This document shows positions 21,452 through 31,741 of a stretch of 64,000 nucleotides of DNA, piece after piece (within the stretch, counting starts at the first letter, position 1; each line of letters begins with the position of its first letter). The DNA is from Acidimicrobiales bacterium (lineage in GTDB: Bacteria; Actinomycetota; Acidimicrobiia; Acidimicrobiales; Iamiaceae), in the NCBI GenBank assembly GCA_025463985.1, contig JAODBM010000207.1, forward strand, positions 1 through 64,000, read 5' to 3'. A program made the position numbers and the translations under genes. A model generated the notes under the pieces. It ran no database searches. It saw nothing but the letters and a program-made list of their open reading frames with translations, and had not been told where the DNA came from.

Positions 21452-22411
21452 TCATTCTCGCGTGCCCGAGCCCGCGTGCTCCACGGGCACCCACATCTCC
21501 AGGAGGAGGTGCACGGCGGCGAGCCACACCAGCGTGGCGCCGAGGACGTGGAGGCCGACGAGGATCGGCGGCACACCGGTGAAGTACTGCGTGTAGCCGA
21601 TCGCTCCCTGCAGCATGCAGACGAACAGCAGCGCCTTCCCGGCCCGGAACACCGGGGACTCGGCGCCGAGGTGGCGCAGCCGCACCAGCAGGCCGGCGAT
21701 CACCGCGAGCAGCAGGATGAGGAGCGCACCGTGGAACCGAGCTGCGTCGTGCACGGCGATGGGCAGCCGCTTGGGCGCGTCGGGGGCGCGGAGGGCCTGC
21801 GCCGTGGTCGAGACCTTGACCGTGGTGTGCCCCGAGTGCGGCCCCGATCCGGTCACGAGCGTGCCGCTCAAGATCACGGCCACGGCCAGCGCCACGAGCG
21901 TCCGGCCGAGCCACAGCACGCCCGGCTCGACGCGGGGCCGGCGCGGGCCGTGCGGGAGGCGCGAGCGGTGGGCGAGCACGGCCGCGTCCAGCACGAGCAG
22001 CATCGACACCACGAAGTGGCCCTGCACGAGCCACGGGTTCAGGTCGGTGAGCACGACCACCGCGCCGAGCAGGATCTGAGCGACCACGCCGGCGACCAGG
22101 CCCACCGAGAGCCACGTGAGGTCGCGCCGCCGGCTCGGCAGACGCACCGAACCGAGCACCGCCAGCGCGACCGCGACCGACACGAGCCCGGTGATGGCTC
22201 GGTTCACGAACTCGATCATCTGATGGGTCTCGGCCTGCGCCACGAAGTGCTTGTCGGTGCAGTTGGGCCAGTCGGTGCAGCCGAGGCCCGAGCCCGAGAG
22301 GCGGACGGCGGCTCCGGTGACCACGATGAACACCAGCAGGGCGAGCGCCACGAGGGTGATGCGCCGGTAGGCGGCCGGCGAGACCTCTGGGAGCCGCAGG
22401 GACGGGAGCAC
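21452..22411 (-). CDS. ctaA: heme A synthase (COX15/CtaA type)
   Basis: Oxidises heme O to heme A for the aa3-type oxidase encoded nearby. 319 aa with about eight membrane segments; VVTGAAVRLSGSGLGCTDWPNC holds the family TGAxVRLxGSGL signature and a cysteine pair, and ETHQMIEFVNR and VQGHFVVSM carry heme-ligand histidines. The GTG at 22411 is supported by TACCCT six bases upstream. It diverges from the heme O synthase gene. Confidence 0.92.
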   Translation of the reverse strand: MLPSLRLPEVSPAAYRRITLVALALLVFIVVTGAAVRLSGSGLGCTDWPNCTDKHFVAQAETHQMIEFVNRAITGLVSVAVALAVLGSVRLPSRRRDLTWLSVGLVAGVVAQILLGAVVVLTDLNPWLVQGHFVVSMLLVLDAAVLAHRSRLPHGPRRPRVEPGVLWLGRTLVALAVAVILSGTLVTGSGPHSGHTTVKVSTTAQALRAPDAPKRLPIAVHDAARFHGALLILLLAVIAGLLVRLRHLGAESPVFRAGKALLFVCMLQGAIGYTQYFTGVPPILVGLHVLGATLVWLAAVHLLLEMWVPVEHAGSGTRE

Positions 22412-22494: not shown

Positions 22495-22501
22495 GGCCGT
22501 C

Positions 22502-23398
22502 GTGCTCAAGCCGGCCCCCCGATCGTTGCGCTCGCGCGCCGGGGCCTATGTCGCCCTGACCAAGCCGCGCATCATCGAGCTGCTGCTGGTGACGACGGTG
22601 CCGACCCAGGTCGTGGCCGCCCGCGGCGTGCCGTCGGGGTGGCTGATCCTCAACACCGTGCTCGGCGGCACGCTGGCCGCTGGCGGGGCCAACGCCATCA
22701 ACATGTTCGTCGACCGGGACATCGACCGGATCATGGAGCGGACGAAGGGTCGGCCCCTCGTGACCGGCGCGATCACGCCGAGAGCGGCCCTGACGTTCGC
22801 CATCGGGCTCGAGGTCGTCGCCTTCGGCTGGCTCTGGGTGTGGGTCAACCTGCTCAGCGCCGTGCTCGCGGTCGCGGCCTGCCTCTTCTACGTCTTCGTG
22901 TACACGCTCTGGCTGAAGCGCACGTCGACCCAGAACATCGTCATCGGCGGTGCGGCCGGCGCCGTGCCCGTGCTCATCGGCTGGTCGTCGGTGACCGGCA
23001 GCCTGGCCTGGGCGCCCGTCGTGCTGTTCGCGGTGATCTTCTGGTGGACGCCCCCGCACTTTTGGGCCCTGGCGATCAAGTACAAGGACGACTACGCCGC
23101 GGCCGACGTGCCGATGCTGCCGTCGGTCGTCAGCCTGCGGGCGACGTCCGTGCGCATCCTCGGCTACACGATCGTGCTCTGGATCCTCACGCTGGTGTTC
23201 TCGCCTGTCGCCGGCATGGGCCACCTGTACCTCGGAGCGGCGATCGTGCTGGGAGCGGTGTTCACCTGGCTCGCGGTGACGCTCCTGCGCAACCCGACGA
23301 CCAAGCGGGCCATGCAGCTCTTCGGCTACAGCATCACCTACATCACGCTGCTCTTCGGAGCGATGGCGGCGGACCAGCTGGTGCGCAACGCCCGATGA
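22502..23398 (+). CDS. ctaB: protoheme IX farnesyltransferase (heme O synthase)
   Basis: Transfers farnesyl to heme B to form heme O. 298 aa with about eight or nine membrane segments. The prenyltransferase motif NMFVDRDIDRIMERTKGRPL holds the DxxxD and RTxxRP elements, and WWTPPHFWALAI and YKDDYAAADVPMLP carry the second acidic motif. The GTG at 22502 is chosen on the leaderless -10. It stands at the head of the oxidase block with heme A synthase divergent. Confidence 0.93.
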   Translation: MLKPAPRSLRSRAGAYVALTKPRIIELLLVTTVPTQVVAARGVPSGWLILNTVLGGTLAAGGANAINMFVDRDIDRIMERTKGRPLVTGAITPRAALTFAIGLEVVAFGWLWVWVNLLSAVLAVAACLFYVFVYTLWLKRTSTQNIVIGGAAGAVPVLIGWSSVTGSLAWAPVVLFAVIFWWTPPHFWALAIKYKDDYAAADVPMLPSVVSLRATSVRILGYTIVLWILTLVFSPVAGMGHLYLGAAIVLGAVFTWLAVTLLRNPTTKRAMQLFGYSITYITLLFGAMAADQLVRNAR

Positions 23399-23546: not shown

Positions 23547-25133
23547 ATGGCTGTAACCGAGACCCCTCCTGCGGCCGTGGACGCGGTCGCCGAGCCGGCC
23601 CCGCGGGAGCCCCACATCGAGCCGCGCGGCCTCGCCGCCGTGCTCGGATCCGGCGATCACAAGGTCATCGGCCGGCTCTACATGGGCTTCGCCGTGGCGT
23701 TCGGTCTCGGGGTCGCCGTGATCGGCGTGCTCACCGACCTCGAGCGGCTCAACACCAAGACGATCTCGATCCTGTCGGTCGACACCTACGCCCAGGTGCT
23801 GAGCCTGCACGACGTCGCCTTCCCGTACCTCGTCGTCGCGCCGCTGCTGCTCGGCCTGGCGTTCGTCATCGTGCCGCTCCAGGTCGGCTCGGCGGCGATC
23901 GCCTTCCCCCGGGCGGCGGCCGCCTCGTTCTGGGCGTGGCTCATGGGCAGCGGCCTGCTCATCACCTCGTACGCGATGAACGGCGGCCCGGGCGGGGGGC
24001 GCTCCAGCGGCGTCGACCTGTTCGCCGTCTCGCTGGGCCTCGTGGTGGCCTCGCTCATGCTCGCCGCCGTGTGCCTGGCCACGACCGTGCTGGCCCTGCG
24101 GGCGCCCGGCCTGTCGCTGAGCCGGGTGCCGGCGTTCGCCTGGTCGAGCCTCGTGGCGGCGTCGCTGTGGCTGGTGAGCCTGCCGGTGCTGCTGGCCACG
24201 CTGATCTTCGTCTACGTCGACCACACCCACGCCTCGACGTCGTATGGCCAGAACGGCGCCATCGCCAGCCGCATCGGCTGGGCGATCAGCCATCCCCACG
24301 TGGCCATCCTGGTCGTCCCGGTGCTCGGCATCGTGGGCGAGATCATGGTGGTGACGGCGCGGGTCCGGCAGGCGCAGCGGGGCGTGGTGCTCGGCGCGAT
24401 CGCCGCCTACGGCATCTTCAGCTACGGCGCCTTTCTCCAGACCGACGCGGCCGGCATCACGCGCGAGCCGCTGTTCATCGGCTTGTCGGTCCTCGCCCTG
24501 CTGCCGCTCCTGGTGCTGCTCCTGTTGTGGGCCGACCTGTTCCGGCGGGGGACGTTCCGTCTCACGGCGCCGTTCGTCTACGCCGTGTCCGCGCTCCTCA
24601 CGCTGGTGGTCGCCGTCCTCGCGGGGGCCGTCAACGGCGCCGCCAACCTCGTGCACTCGGCCAAGTTCGGGCCCGCGGTCACCGTCGGCATCACCCACAT
24701 GGTGCTGTTCGCCGGCCTCATCGGAGCGCTGGGCGGCCTCCACTGGTGGGCCACGAAGGTCGTGGGCCGCCCGCTCGCCAACGGTCCCGCCATGCTCGCC
24801 CCGGTCCTGATGCTGGTCGGCGCCGTGGTCTACGGCGTGCCTGACGTGGTCTCCGGCATGGTCGGCAAAGGGACCGAGAAGGCTCTCGGCATCGAGGGCC
24901 TGAACGCGGTGGCGCTCGTCGGCATCGTGATCGTGCTGCTCGGCATCGGGTTGGCGTTCGCCAGCGTCCTGCCGGCCCTGCGCCGCAGTGCGGACGACGT
25001 GCCGACCGATCCGTGGGAGGGCCACACCCTCGAGTGGGCCACGGCCTCGCCGCCGGCCCCGGGCAACTTCGACCAGGTCCCCGAGGTCACCTCGGCCGAG
25101 CCGCTGCTCGATCAGCGGGAGGAGCAGTCCTGA
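23547..25133 (+). CDS. degenerate cytochrome oxidase subunit I-like protein
   Basis: A 528-aa membrane protein, clearly homologous to the CtaD encoded at 27874: shared DHKxIGxxY start, VPLQVGSxxIAFPR, RAPGLSLSRVPAFAW and a matching C-terminal tail (DPWEGHTLEW). By hand alignment His88 and His384 match the two low-spin heme ligands of CtaD (His93, His408), and His249 matches the first CuB ligand (His271). The cross-linked Tyr275 is Ala253, the His320-His321 pair is missing and the heme a3 ligand His406 is Ile382. It therefore probably cannot reduce oxygen; electron transfer or a structural role is inferred. It overlaps the next gene by one base. Confidence 0.85.
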   Translation: MAVTETPPAAVDAVAEPAPREPHIEPRGLAAVLGSGDHKVIGRLYMGFAVAFGLGVAVIGVLTDLERLNTKTISILSVDTYAQVLSLHDVAFPYLVVAPLLLGLAFVIVPLQVGSAAIAFPRAAAASFWAWLMGSGLLITSYAMNGGPGGGRSSGVDLFAVSLGLVVASLMLAAVCLATTVLALRAPGLSLSRVPAFAWSSLVAASLWLVSLPVLLATLIFVYVDHTHASTSYGQNGAIASRIGWAISHPHVAILVVPVLGIVGEIMVVTARVRQAQRGVVLGAIAAYGIFSYGAFLQTDAAGITREPLFIGLSVLALLPLLVLLLLWADLFRRGTFRLTAPFVYAVSALLTLVVAVLAGAVNGAANLVHSAKFGPAVTVGITHMVLFAGLIGALGGLHWWATKVVGRPLANGPAMLAPVLMLVGAVVYGVPDVVSGMVGKGTEKALGIEGLNAVALVGIVIVLLGIGLAFASVLPALRRSADDVPTDPWEGHTLEWATASPPAPGNFDQVPEVTSAEPLLDQREEQS

Positions 25134-25732
25134 TGACCGCTGCGCAGGCGTCTGTCACCTTGCCGCCCGCGGCCAAGCCAGCCCGGCCCCGCGTGCTGCT
25201 GGTCGGGACGTCCCTGGCCACGGCCAGCACCGTCATGGTCTTCGCCGGGCTGATCGGCATCTACCTGCGCGAGCGCTCGCTGGCGCTGGCGGGCTCGGGC
25301 ACGTGGTTGCCGAAGGGCACCCACATCCCGCTCACGCCCGGCACGATCTCGCTGTTCACGTTCGTCCTCTCGGGCGTCACCATGTGGTGGGCCGTCGATG
25401 CGGTCGGCCGCAACGATCGTCCGGGCGCCTACTTCGCGCTCGCGCTCACGATCATGTTCGGGCTCTGCGTGGTCAACGCCACGACGTTCCTCTACTCGCA
25501 GAGCAAGCTCAGCGTCTCGACCACGGCCGGCATGATGATCTTCACCATCACCGGGGCGCACCTGGCCATGCTCATCGCCGCCATGGTGTTCAACGCGGTC
25601 ATGGTCTTCCGCACGCTCGGCGGTGAGTACCAGGGCCGCGACCGTGAAGGTCTCGTGGCGGCCGCCGTGTTCTGGTACGCGACCATCGCCATGTACGCGG
25701 TCATCTGGTTCGCGATCTACGTCACCAAGTAG
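25133..25732 (+). CDS. cytochrome oxidase subunit III-like protein
   Basis: A 199-aa membrane protein of the COX3 fold with about five segments: LVGTSLATASTVMVFAGLIG, SLFTFVLSGVTMWWAVDA, AYFALALTIMFGLCVVNA, a GAHLAMLIAAMVFNAV segment and the final FWYATIAMYAVIWFAIYV, which resembles the C-terminal helix of subunit III. Its ATG overlaps the stop of the degenerate subunit I gene (TGATG), with GGAGGAG upstream, so the two are made together. It is distinct from the second subunit III at 29885. Confidence 0.8.
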   Translation: MTAAQASVTLPPAAKPARPRVLLVGTSLATASTVMVFAGLIGIYLRERSLALAGSGTWLPKGTHIPLTPGTISLFTFVLSGVTMWWAVDAVGRNDRPGAYFALALTIMFGLCVVNATTFLYSQSKLSVSTTAGMMIFTITGAHLAMLIAAMVFNAVMVFRTLGGEYQGRDREGLVAAAVFWYATIAMYAVIWFAIYVTK

Positions 25733-25741
25733 GGGACCACG

Positions 25742-26575
25742 ATGTTCAAGCTCGGATCGAAGCTCTGGTACGGCCTCGCCGCCTTCGGCTTCCTCGCCGC
25801 GTTCGTCTACGCGGGTGCCAGCGGCCACCACGCGGTCGGCATGGAGACGTTCGTCGGGGCCATCAGCCTCGGCTACAAGGGCCGCGTCGGCGATCACCTC
25901 GGCTACGCCGTGCTCGTCTCGCTCGGCTTCGTCTCCCTGTTCGTCGGCATCGTCCTGTCCGCGCTGCGCGACGCCGACCCAGAGGCGGCGGCGCAGGTCG
26001 TGGGGCTCGACACCGTGCCTGCCGTCGAGGCGCCCCGCACCGCCAGCTTCTGGCCCCTCGTCGGGGCGTTCTCGCTCGCGGCCCTCGCCCTCGGCCTCGC
26101 CGTCGACAAGCTCTTCTTCGTCGTGGGGCTGGTCGGCCTGGCTATCACGGTCGTCGAATGGGCGGTGCGCAACTGGGCCGACCGCGCCACCGGCGACCCC
26201 GAGGTCAACCGGGCCATCCGCCACCGGCTCATGTTTCCGGTCGAGATCCCGGGCATCGCCCTGGTCGGCATCGGGCTCTTCGTGCTGCTGATCTCCCGGG
26301 TGCTGCTCGCCCTTCCCGAGGTCGGGTCGTCGATCGTGTTCGGTCTGGTGCCGGTGGCGGTCCTCGCCGTGGGCGCCCTCGTCGCGTTGAAGCCCAAGGT
26401 GTCGAGCACGCTTGTCGCCGTGCTCATGCTCGTCGGCGGCATGGCCATCCTCGCGGGCGGCATCGCCGCGGGCATCAAGGGCGAGCGCAAGATCGAGAAG
26501 CACGTGACCCAGCACCAGGGGCTGAACGTGCAGCTGCACCCCGGAGCGCCACAGGGCGGAAAGGTCGGCGGTTGA
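25742..26575 (+). CDS. polytopic membrane protein of the oxidase cluster
   Basis: A 277-aa protein of unknown function with about seven membrane segments and two soluble stretches. An early GHHAVGMETF loop has two adjacent histidines. The middle has FWPLVGAFSLAALALGLAVD and VVEWAVRNWADRATGDPEV, and the C-terminus is a His- and Lys-containing tail (EKHVTQHQGLNVQLHPG). It starts nine bases after the subunit III-like gene and precedes subunit II, so it is very likely part of the same operon and complex. I do not recognise the family. Confidence 0.75.
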   Translation: MFKLGSKLWYGLAAFGFLAAFVYAGASGHHAVGMETFVGAISLGYKGRVGDHLGYAVLVSLGFVSLFVGIVLSALRDADPEAAAQVVGLDTVPAVEAPRTASFWPLVGAFSLAALALGLAVDKLFFVVGLVGLAITVVEWAVRNWADRATGDPEVNRAIRHRLMFPVEIPGIALVGIGLFVLLISRVLLALPEVGSSIVFGLVPVAVLAVGALVALKPKVSSTLVAVLMLVGGMAILAGGIAAGIKGERKIEKHVTQHQGLNVQLHPGAPQGGKVGG

Positions 26576-26657
26576 GGTGACCCTCCGCCCCATCGACGAC
26601 TTGGCGCACCGCAAGGACATCGACCACACTCCGACGGTCTCGCAACGAGGAGGATCC

Positions 26658-27857
26658 ATGCTCGGAGGTCGTCTGCGACGACTCGCCCCATTGGCCGGAG
26701 CCGTCGTGCTGCTGGCCTCGGGCTGCGCCAAGAAGGCCCCGCAGACGACCCTCTCGCCCAAGGGTCCTGAAGCCCGCACCATCGCGAACCTCATCAACCC
26801 GGTGTTCCTCGTCGCCGGCGTGGTGTTCGTGCTCGTGCTCGGCGGTGCGCTGTTCGTCGCCATCAAGTTCCGCGCTCGTGACGACGACGACTTCGACGCG
26901 TTCCCGGCCCAGGTGCACGGCAACTTCAAGCTCGAGATCGGCTGGACGATCGTGCCCGCGATCATCCTGGCCGTCATCGGGGCGCTCACGGTGAGCACGA
27001 TCTTCACCCTGTCGAAGAAGCCGGTGGCCGGCGCGCTGCACGTGCAGGTCACGGGCCAGCAGTGGTGGTGGGAGTACCGCTACGACCTCAACAACGACGG
27101 CAAGTTCGACGAGATCGTCACGGCGAACGACCTCGTGATCCCCGAGGGCCGCCAGATCGCGCTCACGATCACGTCGCGCGACGTCATCCACTCCTGGTGG
27201 GCGCCGGCGCTCAACGGCAAGAAGGACGCCGTGCCCAACCACCGGTCGCCCCTCACCATCCAGGCCGATCACACGGGCGAGTTCATCGGCCAGTGCACCG
27301 AATACTGCGGTCTCTCCCACGCGCAGATGCGCATCAAGGTGATCTCCGTCTCCGCCGACGAGTTCACCAAGTGGGCCGACAACCAGCAGAAGCCGGCAGC
27401 CAATCCCACCGAGCAGGCCGCGGTCGAGGGCTGGAAGGTCTTCGCCGGGCAGTGCACCTCCTGCCATCGGGTCAACGGCCTCAAGGACCCCAGCGCGCCG
27501 ACCAAGGACTTCGCCTATCCGAACGTCGTGAACCAGCGGGCCGGCGTCGTGCCGAACCTCACGCACCTCATGTCCCGCACCACGTTCGCCGGCGCCACCT
27601 TCGACCTGCGCAAGAGCGATGACAGCGCCGACGGTCGGTACTGCAAGGCGCTGGGCATCCACTGGGCCGACAAGCCAGCTGACCTCACCCGTTGCCTGAA
27701 CCGGGTCGACCTCGAGGCCTGGTTGCTCGATCCACCGGGCCGCAAACCGATGGCCCCCGGGCCCGCCATGAGCCCCGCCAGCCGGGGCATGCCGAACCTC
27801 CACCTCACCGGCCAGCAGATCGATTACCTGATCGCCTACCTCTCGACCTTGAAGTAG
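26658..27857 (+). CDS. ctaC: cytochrome c oxidase subunit II with fused cytochrome c (caa3)
   Basis: A 399-aa lipoprotein. LLASGC gives lipobox Cys23, and two membrane segments follow. The CuA site is His178 plus CTEYCGLSHAQM (Cys213, Glu215, Cys217, His221, Met224). A C-terminal cytochrome c domain has CTSCH at 266-270 and a late GMPNLHL that may supply the Met ligand. I used the ATG at 26658 behind GAGGAGG; the open frame from 26577 adds no signal sequence. It passes electrons to CuA and heme a of subunit I. Confidence 0.95.
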   Translation: MLGGRLRRLAPLAGAVVLLASGCAKKAPQTTLSPKGPEARTIANLINPVFLVAGVVFVLVLGGALFVAIKFRARDDDDFDAFPAQVHGNFKLEIGWTIVPAIILAVIGALTVSTIFTLSKKPVAGALHVQVTGQQWWWEYRYDLNNDGKFDEIVTANDLVIPEGRQIALTITSRDVIHSWWAPALNGKKDAVPNHRSPLTIQADHTGEFIGQCTEYCGLSHAQMRIKVISVSADEFTKWADNQQKPAANPTEQAAVEGWKVFAGQCTSCHRVNGLKDPSAPTKDFAYPNVVNQRAGVVPNLTHLMSRTTFAGATFDLRKSDDSADGRYCKALGIHWADKPADLTRCLNRVDLEAWLLDPPGRKPMAPGPAMSPASRGMPNLHLTGQQIDYLIAYLSTLK

Positions 27858-27873: not shown

Positions 27874-29892
27874 ATGAGCACGACAGACGCCGCACTCCCC
27901 GCCCTCCCCTCCGGAGAGCCGCCGCGCACGACCCGCCCTGGCGGCGTGTTCGCGCGACCACAGACCGACACCGGCTGGCGCAGCTGGGTCACCACGGTCG
28001 ACCACAAGAAGCTCGGCATCATGTACGGCACGGCGGCGCTGTTCTTCTTCGTGATCGGCGGCGGCGAGGCGCTGTTGATCCGCATCCAGCTGGCCACGCC
28101 GAACGGCAAGCTGCTCAGTGCAGATCTCTACAACCAGGTCTTCACGATGCACGGCACCACGATGATCTTCCTGGTCGTGATGCCGATCGGCGCCGCGTTC
28201 ATGAACTACCTGATCCCGTTGCAGATCGGGGCGCGCGACGTCGCCTTCCCCCGGCTCAACGCGTTCGGCTTCTGGTGCTTCCTGTTCGGCGGCGTGATGC
28301 TCAACTCGAGCTGGTTGCTGGGTCACGCCCCCGACGGCGGCTGGTTCAACTACGCCCCGAACAGCGGCGTGATCTTCTCGCCGACCCATGGCATTGACTT
28401 CTGGAACATGGGCCTCCTGATCACCGGCATCGCCTCGCTCACCGGCGCCATCAACCTCATCGTCACGGTGCTCAACATGCGGGCGCCCGGCATGACGATG
28501 ATGAAGATGCCGGTGTTCACCTGGATGGCCCTGGTGACGCAGTTCCTGCTGCTCTTCGCGATCCCGGTGCTGACCTCGGCGCAGTTCCTGCTGATGTTCG
28601 ACCGGCTCTTCGGGGCCAACTTCTTCAAGACGGCACAGGGCGGTGATCCGCTGCTCTGGGAACACCTGTTTTGGATCTTCGGTCACCCCGAGGTGTACAT
28701 CATGATCTTGCCGGCCTTCGGCGTGGTCTCCGAGATCATTCCGGTGTTCGCGCGCAAGCCGCTCTTCGGCTATCCGTTCATGGTGTTCTCGGGCATCGCC
28801 ATCGGCTTCATGGGCTGGGGCGTCTGGGCCCACCACATGTTCGCCTCGGGCATCGGGCCGATCTCGGTGGCCGCGTTCTCGATGTCGACGATGTTCATCG
28901 CCGTGCCCACAGGCGTGAAGATCCTCAACTGGCTGGCCACCATGTGGGGCGGCAAGCTCAAGTTCAGCTCACCGATGCTGTTCTCGATCGGGCTGGTCAC
29001 GATGTTCACCATCGGCGGCCTCTCGGGCGTCACCCACGCCGTGGCCCCGGCCGACACCCAGCAGACCGACACCTACTACATCGTCGCCCACTTCCACTAC
29101 GTGCTGTTCGGTGGCGCGCTGTTCGGCTTCGTGGGCGGCTGGTACTTCTGGTGGCCGAAGGCCTTCGGCTACGCGTTGAACGACACCCTCGGCAAGGTCC
29201 ACTTCTGGCTGATGCTGATCGGCTTCAACCTGACGTTCGGACCCATGCACATCTTGGGCCTGCAGGGCATGCCCCGGCGGACCTACACCTACAAGAACGG
29301 CTATGGCTTCAACTTCTGGAACATGGTGAGCACGATCGGGGCGTTCGTGATCACGGTGTCGTTCCTGGTGCTGGCGTACAACATCCTGGCCAGCCGGCGG
29401 AAGGCCCGGAAGGCGCAGGGAGTCGGCACCGGGCGCCTCACGATGGCCGCCGACCCTTGGGACGGGCGGAGCCTCGAGTGGATGCTGCCGAGCCCGACCC
29501 CGGCCCACAACTTCGACGAGGTGCCCGTCGTGCGGTCGCTCGACGAGTTCTGGCATCGCAAGTACGGCGAGGAGGAGGACGGCCGCCTCGTGCGGATCGC
29601 CGCCACCGAGGACGTCGTCCAGAAGGGCACGAACACTGACGTCCACCTCCCATCGCCGTCGTACTGGCCGATCGTGCTCGCCTTCGGCCTGCCGTTCATC
29701 GGCTACGGCCTGATCTACAGCCTGTGGTTCGCCGTGCTCGGCGGCATCTGTGTCGTCGGCGGCATCTACGGCTGGGTGATGGAGCCGTCGGTCGACCCCG
29801 ACGCCGGCCACCACGACCCCGAGCCCGGAGCGACCGAGCCCGAGCCCAGCGGTGAAGCCGCTGCCGATGAGGAGGCTGCGCTCGTTGACTGA
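27874..29892 (+). CDS. ctaD: cytochrome c oxidase subunit I
   Basis: Catalytic subunit of the aa3-type oxidase, 672 aa. All metal ligands are present: His93 and His408 (heme a), His406 (heme a3), His271, His320 and His321 (CuB), and the cross-linked Tyr275 in GHPEVY. The tail after residue about 510 (DPWDGRSLEW onwards) continues into two further membrane segments near residues 595-635, so the protein is longer than the usual 550-580 aa. It sits 16 bases after subunit II. Confidence 0.97.
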   Translation: MSTTDAALPALPSGEPPRTTRPGGVFARPQTDTGWRSWVTTVDHKKLGIMYGTAALFFFVIGGGEALLIRIQLATPNGKLLSADLYNQVFTMHGTTMIFLVVMPIGAAFMNYLIPLQIGARDVAFPRLNAFGFWCFLFGGVMLNSSWLLGHAPDGGWFNYAPNSGVIFSPTHGIDFWNMGLLITGIASLTGAINLIVTVLNMRAPGMTMMKMPVFTWMALVTQFLLLFAIPVLTSAQFLLMFDRLFGANFFKTAQGGDPLLWEHLFWIFGHPEVYIMILPAFGVVSEIIPVFARKPLFGYPFMVFSGIAIGFMGWGVWAHHMFASGIGPISVAAFSMSTMFIAVPTGVKILNWLATMWGGKLKFSSPMLFSIGLVTMFTIGGLSGVTHAVAPADTQQTDTYYIVAHFHYVLFGGALFGFVGGWYFWWPKAFGYALNDTLGKVHFWLMLIGFNLTFGPMHILGLQGMPRRTYTYKNGYGFNFWNMVSTIGAFVITVSFLVLAYNILASRRKARKAQGVGTGRLTMAADPWDGRSLEWMLPSPTPAHNFDEVPVVRSLDEFWHRKYGEEEDGRLVRIAATEDVVQKGTNTDVHLPSPSYWPIVLAFGLPFIGYGLIYSLWFAVLGGICVVGGIYGWVMEPSVDPDAGHHDPEPGATEPEPSGEAAADEEAALVD

Positions 29893-30529
29893 CATCGCCG
29901 CACCCAGCACGACCGAGGCCGGGATCCCCGTCGCCGTCCCCGATGGCGAGTCCCATGGCCTCAGCCACGCCACCAGCACCGGCATCTCGAACGAGAAGCT
30001 GGCGATGTGGTGCTTCCTCGGCTCCGAGTGCCTCCTGTTCGGTGGCCTGATCTCGACGTACCTGCTGTACAAGGACAAGGCCGTCCGCGGCCCGAAGCCG
30101 CACGAGCTCTACGCCATCCCGTTCACGTCGGTCAGCTCGTTCGTGCTCCTCATGAGCTCGCTCACGATGGTGCTCGCCGTGTCGGCGATCCAGCGGGGTG
30201 ACCAGCGGGCGCTCCGGGCCTGGATCGCCACCACCGCCCTGCTGGGCGCGACCTTCATCTCCGGTCAGGTCTACGAGTTCTCCGTGTTCCTCAAGGAGGG
30301 CATGGGCTTCACGACCAACGCCGCGAGCTCGGCCTTCTTCACGCTCACCGGGTTCCACGGCGTGCACGTCACGATCGGCATCGTGATGCTGCTGTCGGTG
30401 CTCGTGCTGTCGCTGCGGGGCCGCCTGCCGCAGGAGCGGGCCGAAGCCGTCGAGATCGTGGGCCTGTACTGGCACTTCGTCGACGTGGTGTGGATCCTGA
30501 TCTTCACCGTCGTCTACCTCATCAAGTAG
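29885..30529 (+). CDS. ctaE: cytochrome c oxidase subunit III
   Basis: A 214-aa subunit III. MWCFLGSECLLFGGLISTYLLY, GQVYEFSVF, TLTGFHGVHVTIGI and the C-terminal GLYWHFVDVVWILIFTVVYL are diagnostic. I favour the TTG at 29885 because GAGGAGG at 29869-29875 lies nine bases upstream and homologues start near here; ATG 29867 and GTG 29852 are possible. The start overlaps the end of ctaD by eight bases, so the two genes are translationally coupled. Confidence 0.93.
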   Translation: MTDIAAPSTTEAGIPVAVPDGESHGLSHATSTGISNEKLAMWCFLGSECLLFGGLISTYLLYKDKAVRGPKPHELYAIPFTSVSSFVLLMSSLTMVLAVSAIQRGDQRALRAWIATTALLGATFISGQVYEFSVFLKEGMGFTTNAASSAFFTLTGFHGVHVTIGIVMLLSVLVLSLRGRLPQERAEAVEIVGLYWHFVDVVWILIFTVVYLIK

Positions 30530-30540
30530 GAGCAGGGGCC

Positions 30541-30885
30541 ATGACCGACGCCACCGCCACCGCCATCCCGCACGACGCGCACGGTGACGTCGGCGTCACG
30601 GCCCACCACACGCCATCCGATGGCCACTACGTGCGGGTGGCGCTCTTCCTGGCCGTCGCGACCGCCCTCGAGGTGATCCTCTCCTACACCGCGCTGCACG
30701 GCATCGCCCTGCTGGTGCCGTTGCTCGTCGTGATGGCGATCAAGTTCGTGATCGTGGCCTCGCACTTCATGCACCTGAGGTTCGACGACAAGCTGCTCTC
30801 GAAGATCTTCTACACCGGGCTCCTGCTGGCCACGGGCGTGTACATCGCCGCGCTGAGCTCGCTGCACGTCTTCGCGGGGAAGTGA
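30541..30885 (+). CDS. cytochrome c oxidase subunit IV-like protein
   Basis: A 114-aa membrane protein of the caa3/COX4-prokaryotic type, with a His-rich soluble N-terminus and three membrane segments: VALFLAVATALEVILSYTAL, ALLVPLLVVMAIKFVIVASH followed by FMHLRFD, and IFYTGLLLATGVYIAALSSL. The FMHLRFD element is typical of the family. It starts 11 bases after subunit III with AGGAGCAGGGG upstream. Confidence 0.88.
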   Translation: MTDATATAIPHDAHGDVGVTAHHTPSDGHYVRVALFLAVATALEVILSYTALHGIALLVPLLVVMAIKFVIVASHFMHLRFDDKLLSKIFYTGLLLATGVYIAALSSLHVFAGK

Positions 30886-30895
30886 CGGCACGGCC

Positions 30896-31741
30896 ATGAC
30901 CCTGTTCGCCGCGAACGCTTGGGCGTGGCGGCCGCACCCTGAGGTCTGGGTGCTCATGGTGGCGATCATCGGGCTGTACCTCTGGGCTGAGCGCACGATC
31001 GGGCCGAAGGTGGTGCCGCTCGGGACGCCCCCGGTCACACGGGCGCAGAAGCGGTACTTCGTCGCCGGCGTCGCGCTCATGTGGCTGGCGGCCGACTGGC
31101 CGATGCACGACATCGGCGAGAACTACCTGTACGTCGTGCACATGGTGCAGCACCTCTTGCTGACGCTGGTCGTGCCGCCGCTGCTGCTCCTCGGCACGCC
31201 CGAGTGGCTGGCCCGGCTGGTGCTCACCGAAGGTCGGGCCGCGCCGTGGATCAAGCGCATGGTCCGGCCGGTGGCGGCGGCAGCCGTCTACAACGTCGTG
31301 CTCCTGCTGAGCCACTGGCCCACGCTCGTCAACACGTCGGTGCGGGTCGGCTGGCTGCACTTCATCGTGCACGCCGTGCTCTTCGTGACCGCCCTCGCGG
31401 TGTGGACGCCGATCTGCGGCCCGATCCCCGAGTGGCGCCTCAGCGTGCCCGCGCAGATGGTCTACCTGTTCCTGATGTCGGTGGTGCCGACGCTGCCCGG
31501 CGCGTGGCTCACGTTCTCCACCCACGCCGTCTACAAGGCGTACGACATCCCCCAGCGGCTCTGGGGCATCTCGGTGCGCTCGGACCAGCAGGCCGCGGGC
31601 TTGCTCATGAAGCTCGGTGGGGGCGCGTACCTCTGGACCATCATCGCGGTGCTGTTCTTCCGCTGGGCCGCCCGCGACGAGGCCGCGTCGAAGGAAGCGC
31701 GTTCGGTCGCCGGCCGCCAGGCCATCAGCACCCGCAACTGA
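30896..31741 (+). CDS. CtaG/caa3-type oxidase assembly protein
   Basis: A 281-aa polytopic membrane protein of the caa3_CtaG family thought to assist CuB insertion. Conserved histidines lie in DWPMHDIGENYLYVVHMVQHLLL and WLHFIVHAVLFV. About seven membrane segments. It closes the oxidase operon, ten bases after the subunit IV-like gene, and converges on the ABC exporter genes. Confidence 0.9.
   Translation: MTLFAANAWAWRPHPEVWVLMVAIIGLYLWAERTIGPKVVPLGTPPVTRAQKRYFVAGVALMWLAADWPMHDIGENYLYVVHMVQHLLLTLVVPPLLLLGTPEWLARLVLTEGRAAPWIKRMVRPVAAAAVYNVVLLLSHWPTLVNTSVRVGWLHFIVHAVLFVTALAVWTPICGPIPEWRLSVPAQMVYLFLMSVVPTLPGAWLTFSTHAVYKAYDIPQRLWGISVRSDQQAAGLLMKLGGGAYLWTIIAVLFFRWAARDEAASKEARSVAGRQAISTRN

Follow-up and report, generated by a model that had tools for sequence, protein, structure and literature searches.

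Respiratory complexes can contain degenerate or heme-free subunits, as exemplified by CydB of cytochrome bd. In or near the bc1 complex of Acidiphilium, a degenerate subunit has been kept (PMC10715153). According to the same source (PMC10715153, citing Matsutani et al. 2014), Acetobacter encodes an inactive, "deranged" COX1-like protein that lacks all cofactor ligands, lies beside ctaB and is suggested to stabilize CtaB; the bacteria in which it was described no longer have cytochrome c oxidase (PMC10715153).

We analyzed a 64,000-nucleotide stretch of DNA from an Acidimicrobiales bacterium (hereafter the window) that encodes a paralogue of oxidase subunit I, here called I'. The Acetobacter protein is the closest published case that we found: as described, it is, like I', an inactive COX1 homologue kept beside ctaB. 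However, I' has III' and IV' partners, adjoins an entire caa3 operon and occurs across an order. The Acetobacter protein is described as being without any ligands; among I' sequences, 35 out of 65, many crown members included, lack both axial His residues, and the window copy keeps both. I' also resembles the Acidiphilium bc1 subunit and CydB as a non-catalytic or degraded subunit that would be retained in a complex, although the protein families are unrelated. CtaD/CoxA, the A-type (aa3/caa3) subunit I, has the same 12-TM fold, COX1 Pfam domain and C-terminal tail as I', but I' is without the CuB center, the a3 ligand and the D- and K-channel residues. For the Acidimicrobiales module containing I', we found no description in the openly searchable literature.

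A three-gene module ahead of the caa3 operon

I' is not a lone subunit I gene; it is the first of three genes (I', III' and IV'X) lying between ctaB and ctaC, of which the sequence-only reading overlooked the second and third as oxidase paralogues. The features of the locus are as follows.

ctaA, 21452..22400, minus strand: presumably heme A synthase (named from its sequence), divergent, start approximate, part of the synteny
ctaB, 22500..23398, plus strand: which we take from its sequence to be heme O synthase, start approximate, immediately upstream of I' in almost all loci and part of the synteny
I' (HCOp1), 23547..25133, plus strand: subunit I paralogue predicted to be catalytically inactive, 528 aa, 12 TM
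III' (HCOp3), 25133..25732, plus strand: subunit III paralogue, 199 aa, Pfam COX3 match (E = 1.5e-10)
IV'X (MP277), 25742..26575, plus strand: 277 aa, about 7 TM, starting nine bases past III'
ctaC, 26658..27857, plus strand: subunit II of the caa3 partner oxidase, carrying a lipobox and a cytochrome c domain
ctaD, 27874..29892, plus strand: active subunit I with all ligands present
ctaE, 29867..30529, plus strand: subunit III, start approximate
ctaF, 30541..30885, plus strand: subunit IV, COX4_pro match
ctaG, 30896..31741, plus strand: caa3 assembly factor

The sequence-only reading had proposed that I' is a true homologue of subunit I, citing a shared C-terminal tail, and had suggested modeling its fold. 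Homology and tail were confirmed. I' is an intact 528-codon open reading frame that matched Pfam COX1 (PF00115) with an E value of 1e-44. In a pairwise alignment it was 28% identical to CtaD (27874-29892), and the tail motif DPWxGxTLEW..SPP..NF was common to both. AlphaFold2 produced a confident, CtaD-like model (pTM 0.90), whose top PDB match by Foldseek was mycobacterial CtaD (9gy6_F, TM 0.85). I' therefore has the COX1 fold and homology of a functional CtaD, and its score against NCBIfam CtaD_CoxA (TIGR02891), 205 bits, was below the curated cut-off of 670.75.

The I' stop codon overlaps the III' start (TGATG). III' matched the actinobacterial CtaE family NF050119 (aa3_CtaE_Actin) with an E value of 1e-11, far under the family cut-off. 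IV'X had no family match of its own, and a fold search with its model (pTM 0.57) returned no match below E 1. Residues 4-134 of IV'X resemble actinobacterial subunit IV (CtaF), and a profile of IV'X orthologues matched polypeptide 4 of corynebacterial and mycobacterial oxidases in the PDB over the same residues (E = 8e-5). Unlike CtaF, the IV' part continues into a second membrane domain that ancestrally carried a cupredoxin. This C-terminal half corresponds to the membrane portion of a protein, X, that elsewhere lies mostly 3' of ctaG; the blue-copper domain is missing from the window IV'X. IV'X and ctaC are separated by an 82-base gap (26576-26657), and a sigma-70 promoter scan gave no signal above chance. 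The genome of the window also encodes a second A-type oxidase subunit I (L063, G000:C87:1-10000), accompanied by a subunit II and a frame resembling subunit III; the contig also codes for a cytochrome b protein.

A conserved respiratory module ahead of a full caa3 set had been envisaged, together with a survey of its gene order, and the survey bore this out: among the fetched loci, the order ctaB-I'-III'-IV'X-ctaC-D-E-F-G was kept in over 20 Acidimicrobiales families. A search of relatives gave a subunit I match of some kind in 61 out of 61 genomes. We then compared the occurrence of the IV'X profile, as a marker of the module, with that of caa3-type CtaD in 298 genomes of the order. IV'X was matched in 200 genomes and CtaD in 186; 183 had both, 95 had neither, 17 had IV'X only and 3 had CtaD only (Fisher p = 1e-55, a statistic that ignores kinship). 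Several of the 20 exceptions were contig edges (for example, G009 and G014), and the module-less genomes that were read had another A-type oxidase instead.

Outside Acidimicrobiales, we found only the C-terminal half of IV'X, as a separate cupredoxin membrane protein located mostly right after ctaG. This homologous, plastocyanin-like protein is uncharacterized and occurs in other actinobacterial classes (L096:6517-7212, L098:7425-8147, L104:6790-7455 and others). In family f29 (L054 and L278), the module can sit about 4.7 kb from ctaC, and a CtaG-like frame adjoins I'. One metagenome-assembled genome labeled Bifidobacterium breve (L191) carries the same Acidimicrobiales-type operon and is probably mislabeled or a contaminated bin.

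Cofactor residues and selection in I'

We assigned ligand positions from the pairwise alignment and from a 92-row family alignment (65 I' and 27 CtaD). In the window copy, both alignments place His88 and His384 at the low-spin heme a ligand positions. The heme a3 His position is occupied by Ile382, the CuB HisHis pair is replaced by Gln/Thr and the cross-linked Tyr position is Ala253. Equivalents of D132 and K362 in the D- and K-channels are gone, as are both propionate Arg residues and the Arg that binds the formyl group. From the binuclear center (three CuB His, the a3 His and Tyr), His249 alone is left: the first CuB ligand position is still His (HPHVA versus HPEVY), uniquely among the 65 orthologues. 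Apart from His249, the alignments offered no candidates for relocated CuB, a3 or Tyr ligands. All seven checked residues were kept in 137 out of 137 CtaD sequences from the loci at hand, and a full CuB site was found in 0 out of 65 I' sequences. We read I' as part of a duplicated aa3-type core (I', III' and IV'X) that, from these losses, is predicted to have no oxygen-reducing site.

The ligand losses described in the sequence-only reading thus stand, as does its observation that both low-spin heme His residues are kept, and a search for ligands restored elsewhere did not overturn them. Its statement that I' keeps only the low-spin heme site holds for the window copy with regard to heme a, but not for CuB, since the first CuB position retains His249, and not for the family, in which 15 out of 65 copies had both heme a His residues, 35 had neither and 15 had one only.

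Ligand loss of this kind, together with faster divergence (about 50% identity for I' versus 80% for CtaD in the same genomes), could mark a decaying pseudogene under relaxed selection. We calculated dN/dS on whole open frames, pairing members of a single genus in which both His residues are missing. For I', the two closest pairs gave 0.085 and 0.089 (CtaD 0.071) and more distant pairs gave 0.20-0.28; CtaD of these genomes ranged over 0.07-0.11. I' frames were intact throughout the relatives and in 14 out of 15 genomes of one genus; we looked for close pairs with a dN/dS approaching 1 and for frequently broken frames and found neither. GC at the third codon position of I' was 0.96, the same as for CtaD, and the gene order is conserved across the whole taxonomic order. 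I' is under purifying selection, even in heme-less lineages. We therefore rejected decay, an outcome that the earlier reading had named as its own refutation, on the intact frames, dN/dS and third-position GC; it is very improbable.

The distribution of conserved positions differs between the paralogues. Conservation in the periplasmic loops, which face the docking side of subunit II, was 0.41 for I' versus 0.79 for CtaD. The corresponding values were 0.59 versus 0.74 on the cytoplasmic side and 0.63 versus 0.67 in the C-terminal tail, which is cytoplasmic and has hardly changed. Paralogue-specific residues (G103, G147, R43 and A124) are near-invariant in I'. This shift fits an I' that would have cytoplasmic-side partners (III', IV' and perhaps the oxidase) and no subunit II.

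Heme a ligands and blue copper across the family

In the tree, a single split (SH-aLRT 100) separated the 65 I' from the 27 CtaD sequences, and on this topology the I' family has one origin. Within the family, the heme a ligands are unstable. An orthologue 53% identical to the window copy has Tyr in place of His88, and further members of the window's family carry Phe, Trp, Met, Ala or Leu at that position. In some of these relatives His384 is replaced by Asn, Thr, Gln, Leu or Glu. The tree requires at least eight changes of state for His88 and at least six for His384, some of them between close relatives. Because both residues are replaced in close relatives, selection in the window's clade is not maintaining the heme site.

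In the deep lineages (f7, f9, f10, f14, f38 and f29), every locus read had the heme a His pair, and the formyl Arg was nearly always kept. Their IV'X bears a cupredoxin whose ligands are His, Cys-x2-His and Met. None of the six families retains CuB. The a3 His persists in f7, f10 and f14 and, with one exception, in f9; f29 and f38 have lost it. Family f13, an early crown branch, has kept both the cupredoxin and the His pair. Among 75 loci with a complete IV'X, the heme a pair was kept in 20 out of 20 with a cupredoxin and in 6 out of 55 without one (Fisher p = 3e-13, a statistic that ignores shared descent). In one family (L109:7208-8353; L195-L201), IV'X ends in an extra domain with conserved Cys and without the copper ligands, which is perhaps a converted cupredoxin.

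The window copy belongs to the copper-less group, yet both axial His residues are present. It is one of 9 heme-retaining members among 59 in the crown, a hint that some of these copies may still bind heme. The residue after the TM2 heme-ligand position was Arg in 37 out of 50 copies without the full pair and in 1 out of 15 with it (descent ignored), as if this Arg filled space in heme-poor copies. The window has Asp there (codon 89, 23811-23813), alone among the 65.

These patterns bear on the proposal in the sequence-only reading that I' is a subunit I reduced to an electron carrier, binding one bis-His heme and relaying electrons. The retained His88 and His384, the contrast in Arg usage with Asp in the window copy, and the His pair that is invariant in deep lineages together with an attached blue-copper domain speak for such a carrier. 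Against it stand the repeated changes at both ligand positions, the loss of the formyl and propionate Arg residues from the window copy, and a window module that has no electron donor domain, neither a cupredoxin nor a subunit II paralogue. As a general mechanism it is not supported, given the replacement of His88 and His384 in close relatives. A one-heme relay is plausible for the deep lineages, given their conserved ligands; we consider the carrier unlikely as an account of I', because it fits those lineages better than a window copy without the copper domain and the Arg anchors.

A proposed pseudo-oxidase subcomplex

We propose that I', III' and IV'X form a pseudo-oxidase subcomplex that would support the caa3 oxidase structurally or in assembly, and we give this reading a probability of roughly 0.55. 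In its favor are the widely shared gene order, the co-occurrence with caa3-type CtaD, the single origin of I', the loss from I' of ligands that every CtaD keeps, the low dN/dS after that loss, the shift in conservation, the pairing of blue copper with the heme a His residues and the overlapping I' and III' frames. Because the core is kept intact while its metal and heme sites have eroded, the module is probably a structural or assembly partner rather than a one-heme carrier. The three proteins would join in the membrane through their cytoplasmic face, as subunits of real oxidases do, and would associate with the caa3 oxidase as a pseudo-protomer, stabilizing the oxidase or its assembly. Historically, an oxidase duplicate would have lost CuB first; the IV'X blue-copper domain and heme a would then have formed a relay, which would survive in the deep lineages. 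With loss of the copper domain, heme a would have become dispensable and its ligands would have drifted repeatedly.

Co-occurrence and gene order could instead reflect an assembly role or common descent, and the heme-retaining crown copies also weigh against this reading. The module might be an assembly factor, serving as scaffold or chaperone while heme A or copper is inserted into CtaD, or stabilizing CtaB. Its location suits such a role, flanked by ctaB and ctaC in a cluster that also holds ctaA and ctaG, and the published proposal that the Acetobacter COX1-like protein stabilizes CtaB (PMC10715153) points the same way. However, a chaperone would not need paralogues of three whole subunits (I, III and IV), and the deep lineages keep redox ligands of their own. 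We regard this account as rather doubtful and favor the pseudo-protomer over assembly support. A more elaborate version of the pseudo-oxidase reading, which we hold only tentatively, assigns the deep lineages a blue-copper/heme a relay on an oxidase scaffold without O2 reduction, docked to caa3, where it would admit electrons or act as a sensor. Crown lineages, the window's among them, would have lost this relay, and their pseudo-oxidase would have become structurally indispensable as one half of a heteromeric caa3 complex.

Automatic annotation will label the dead copies as cytochrome c oxidase subunit I, and such labels should be read with caution. Oxidases are textbook catalytic machines, and a whole core (I, III and IV) kept as a scaffold next to the working enzyme throughout an order would provide a pseudoenzyme series of unusual clarity. 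Its living intermediates have ligands for two hemes without CuB, for one heme or for none, and with them the role of the oxidase fold beyond catalysis becomes directly testable.
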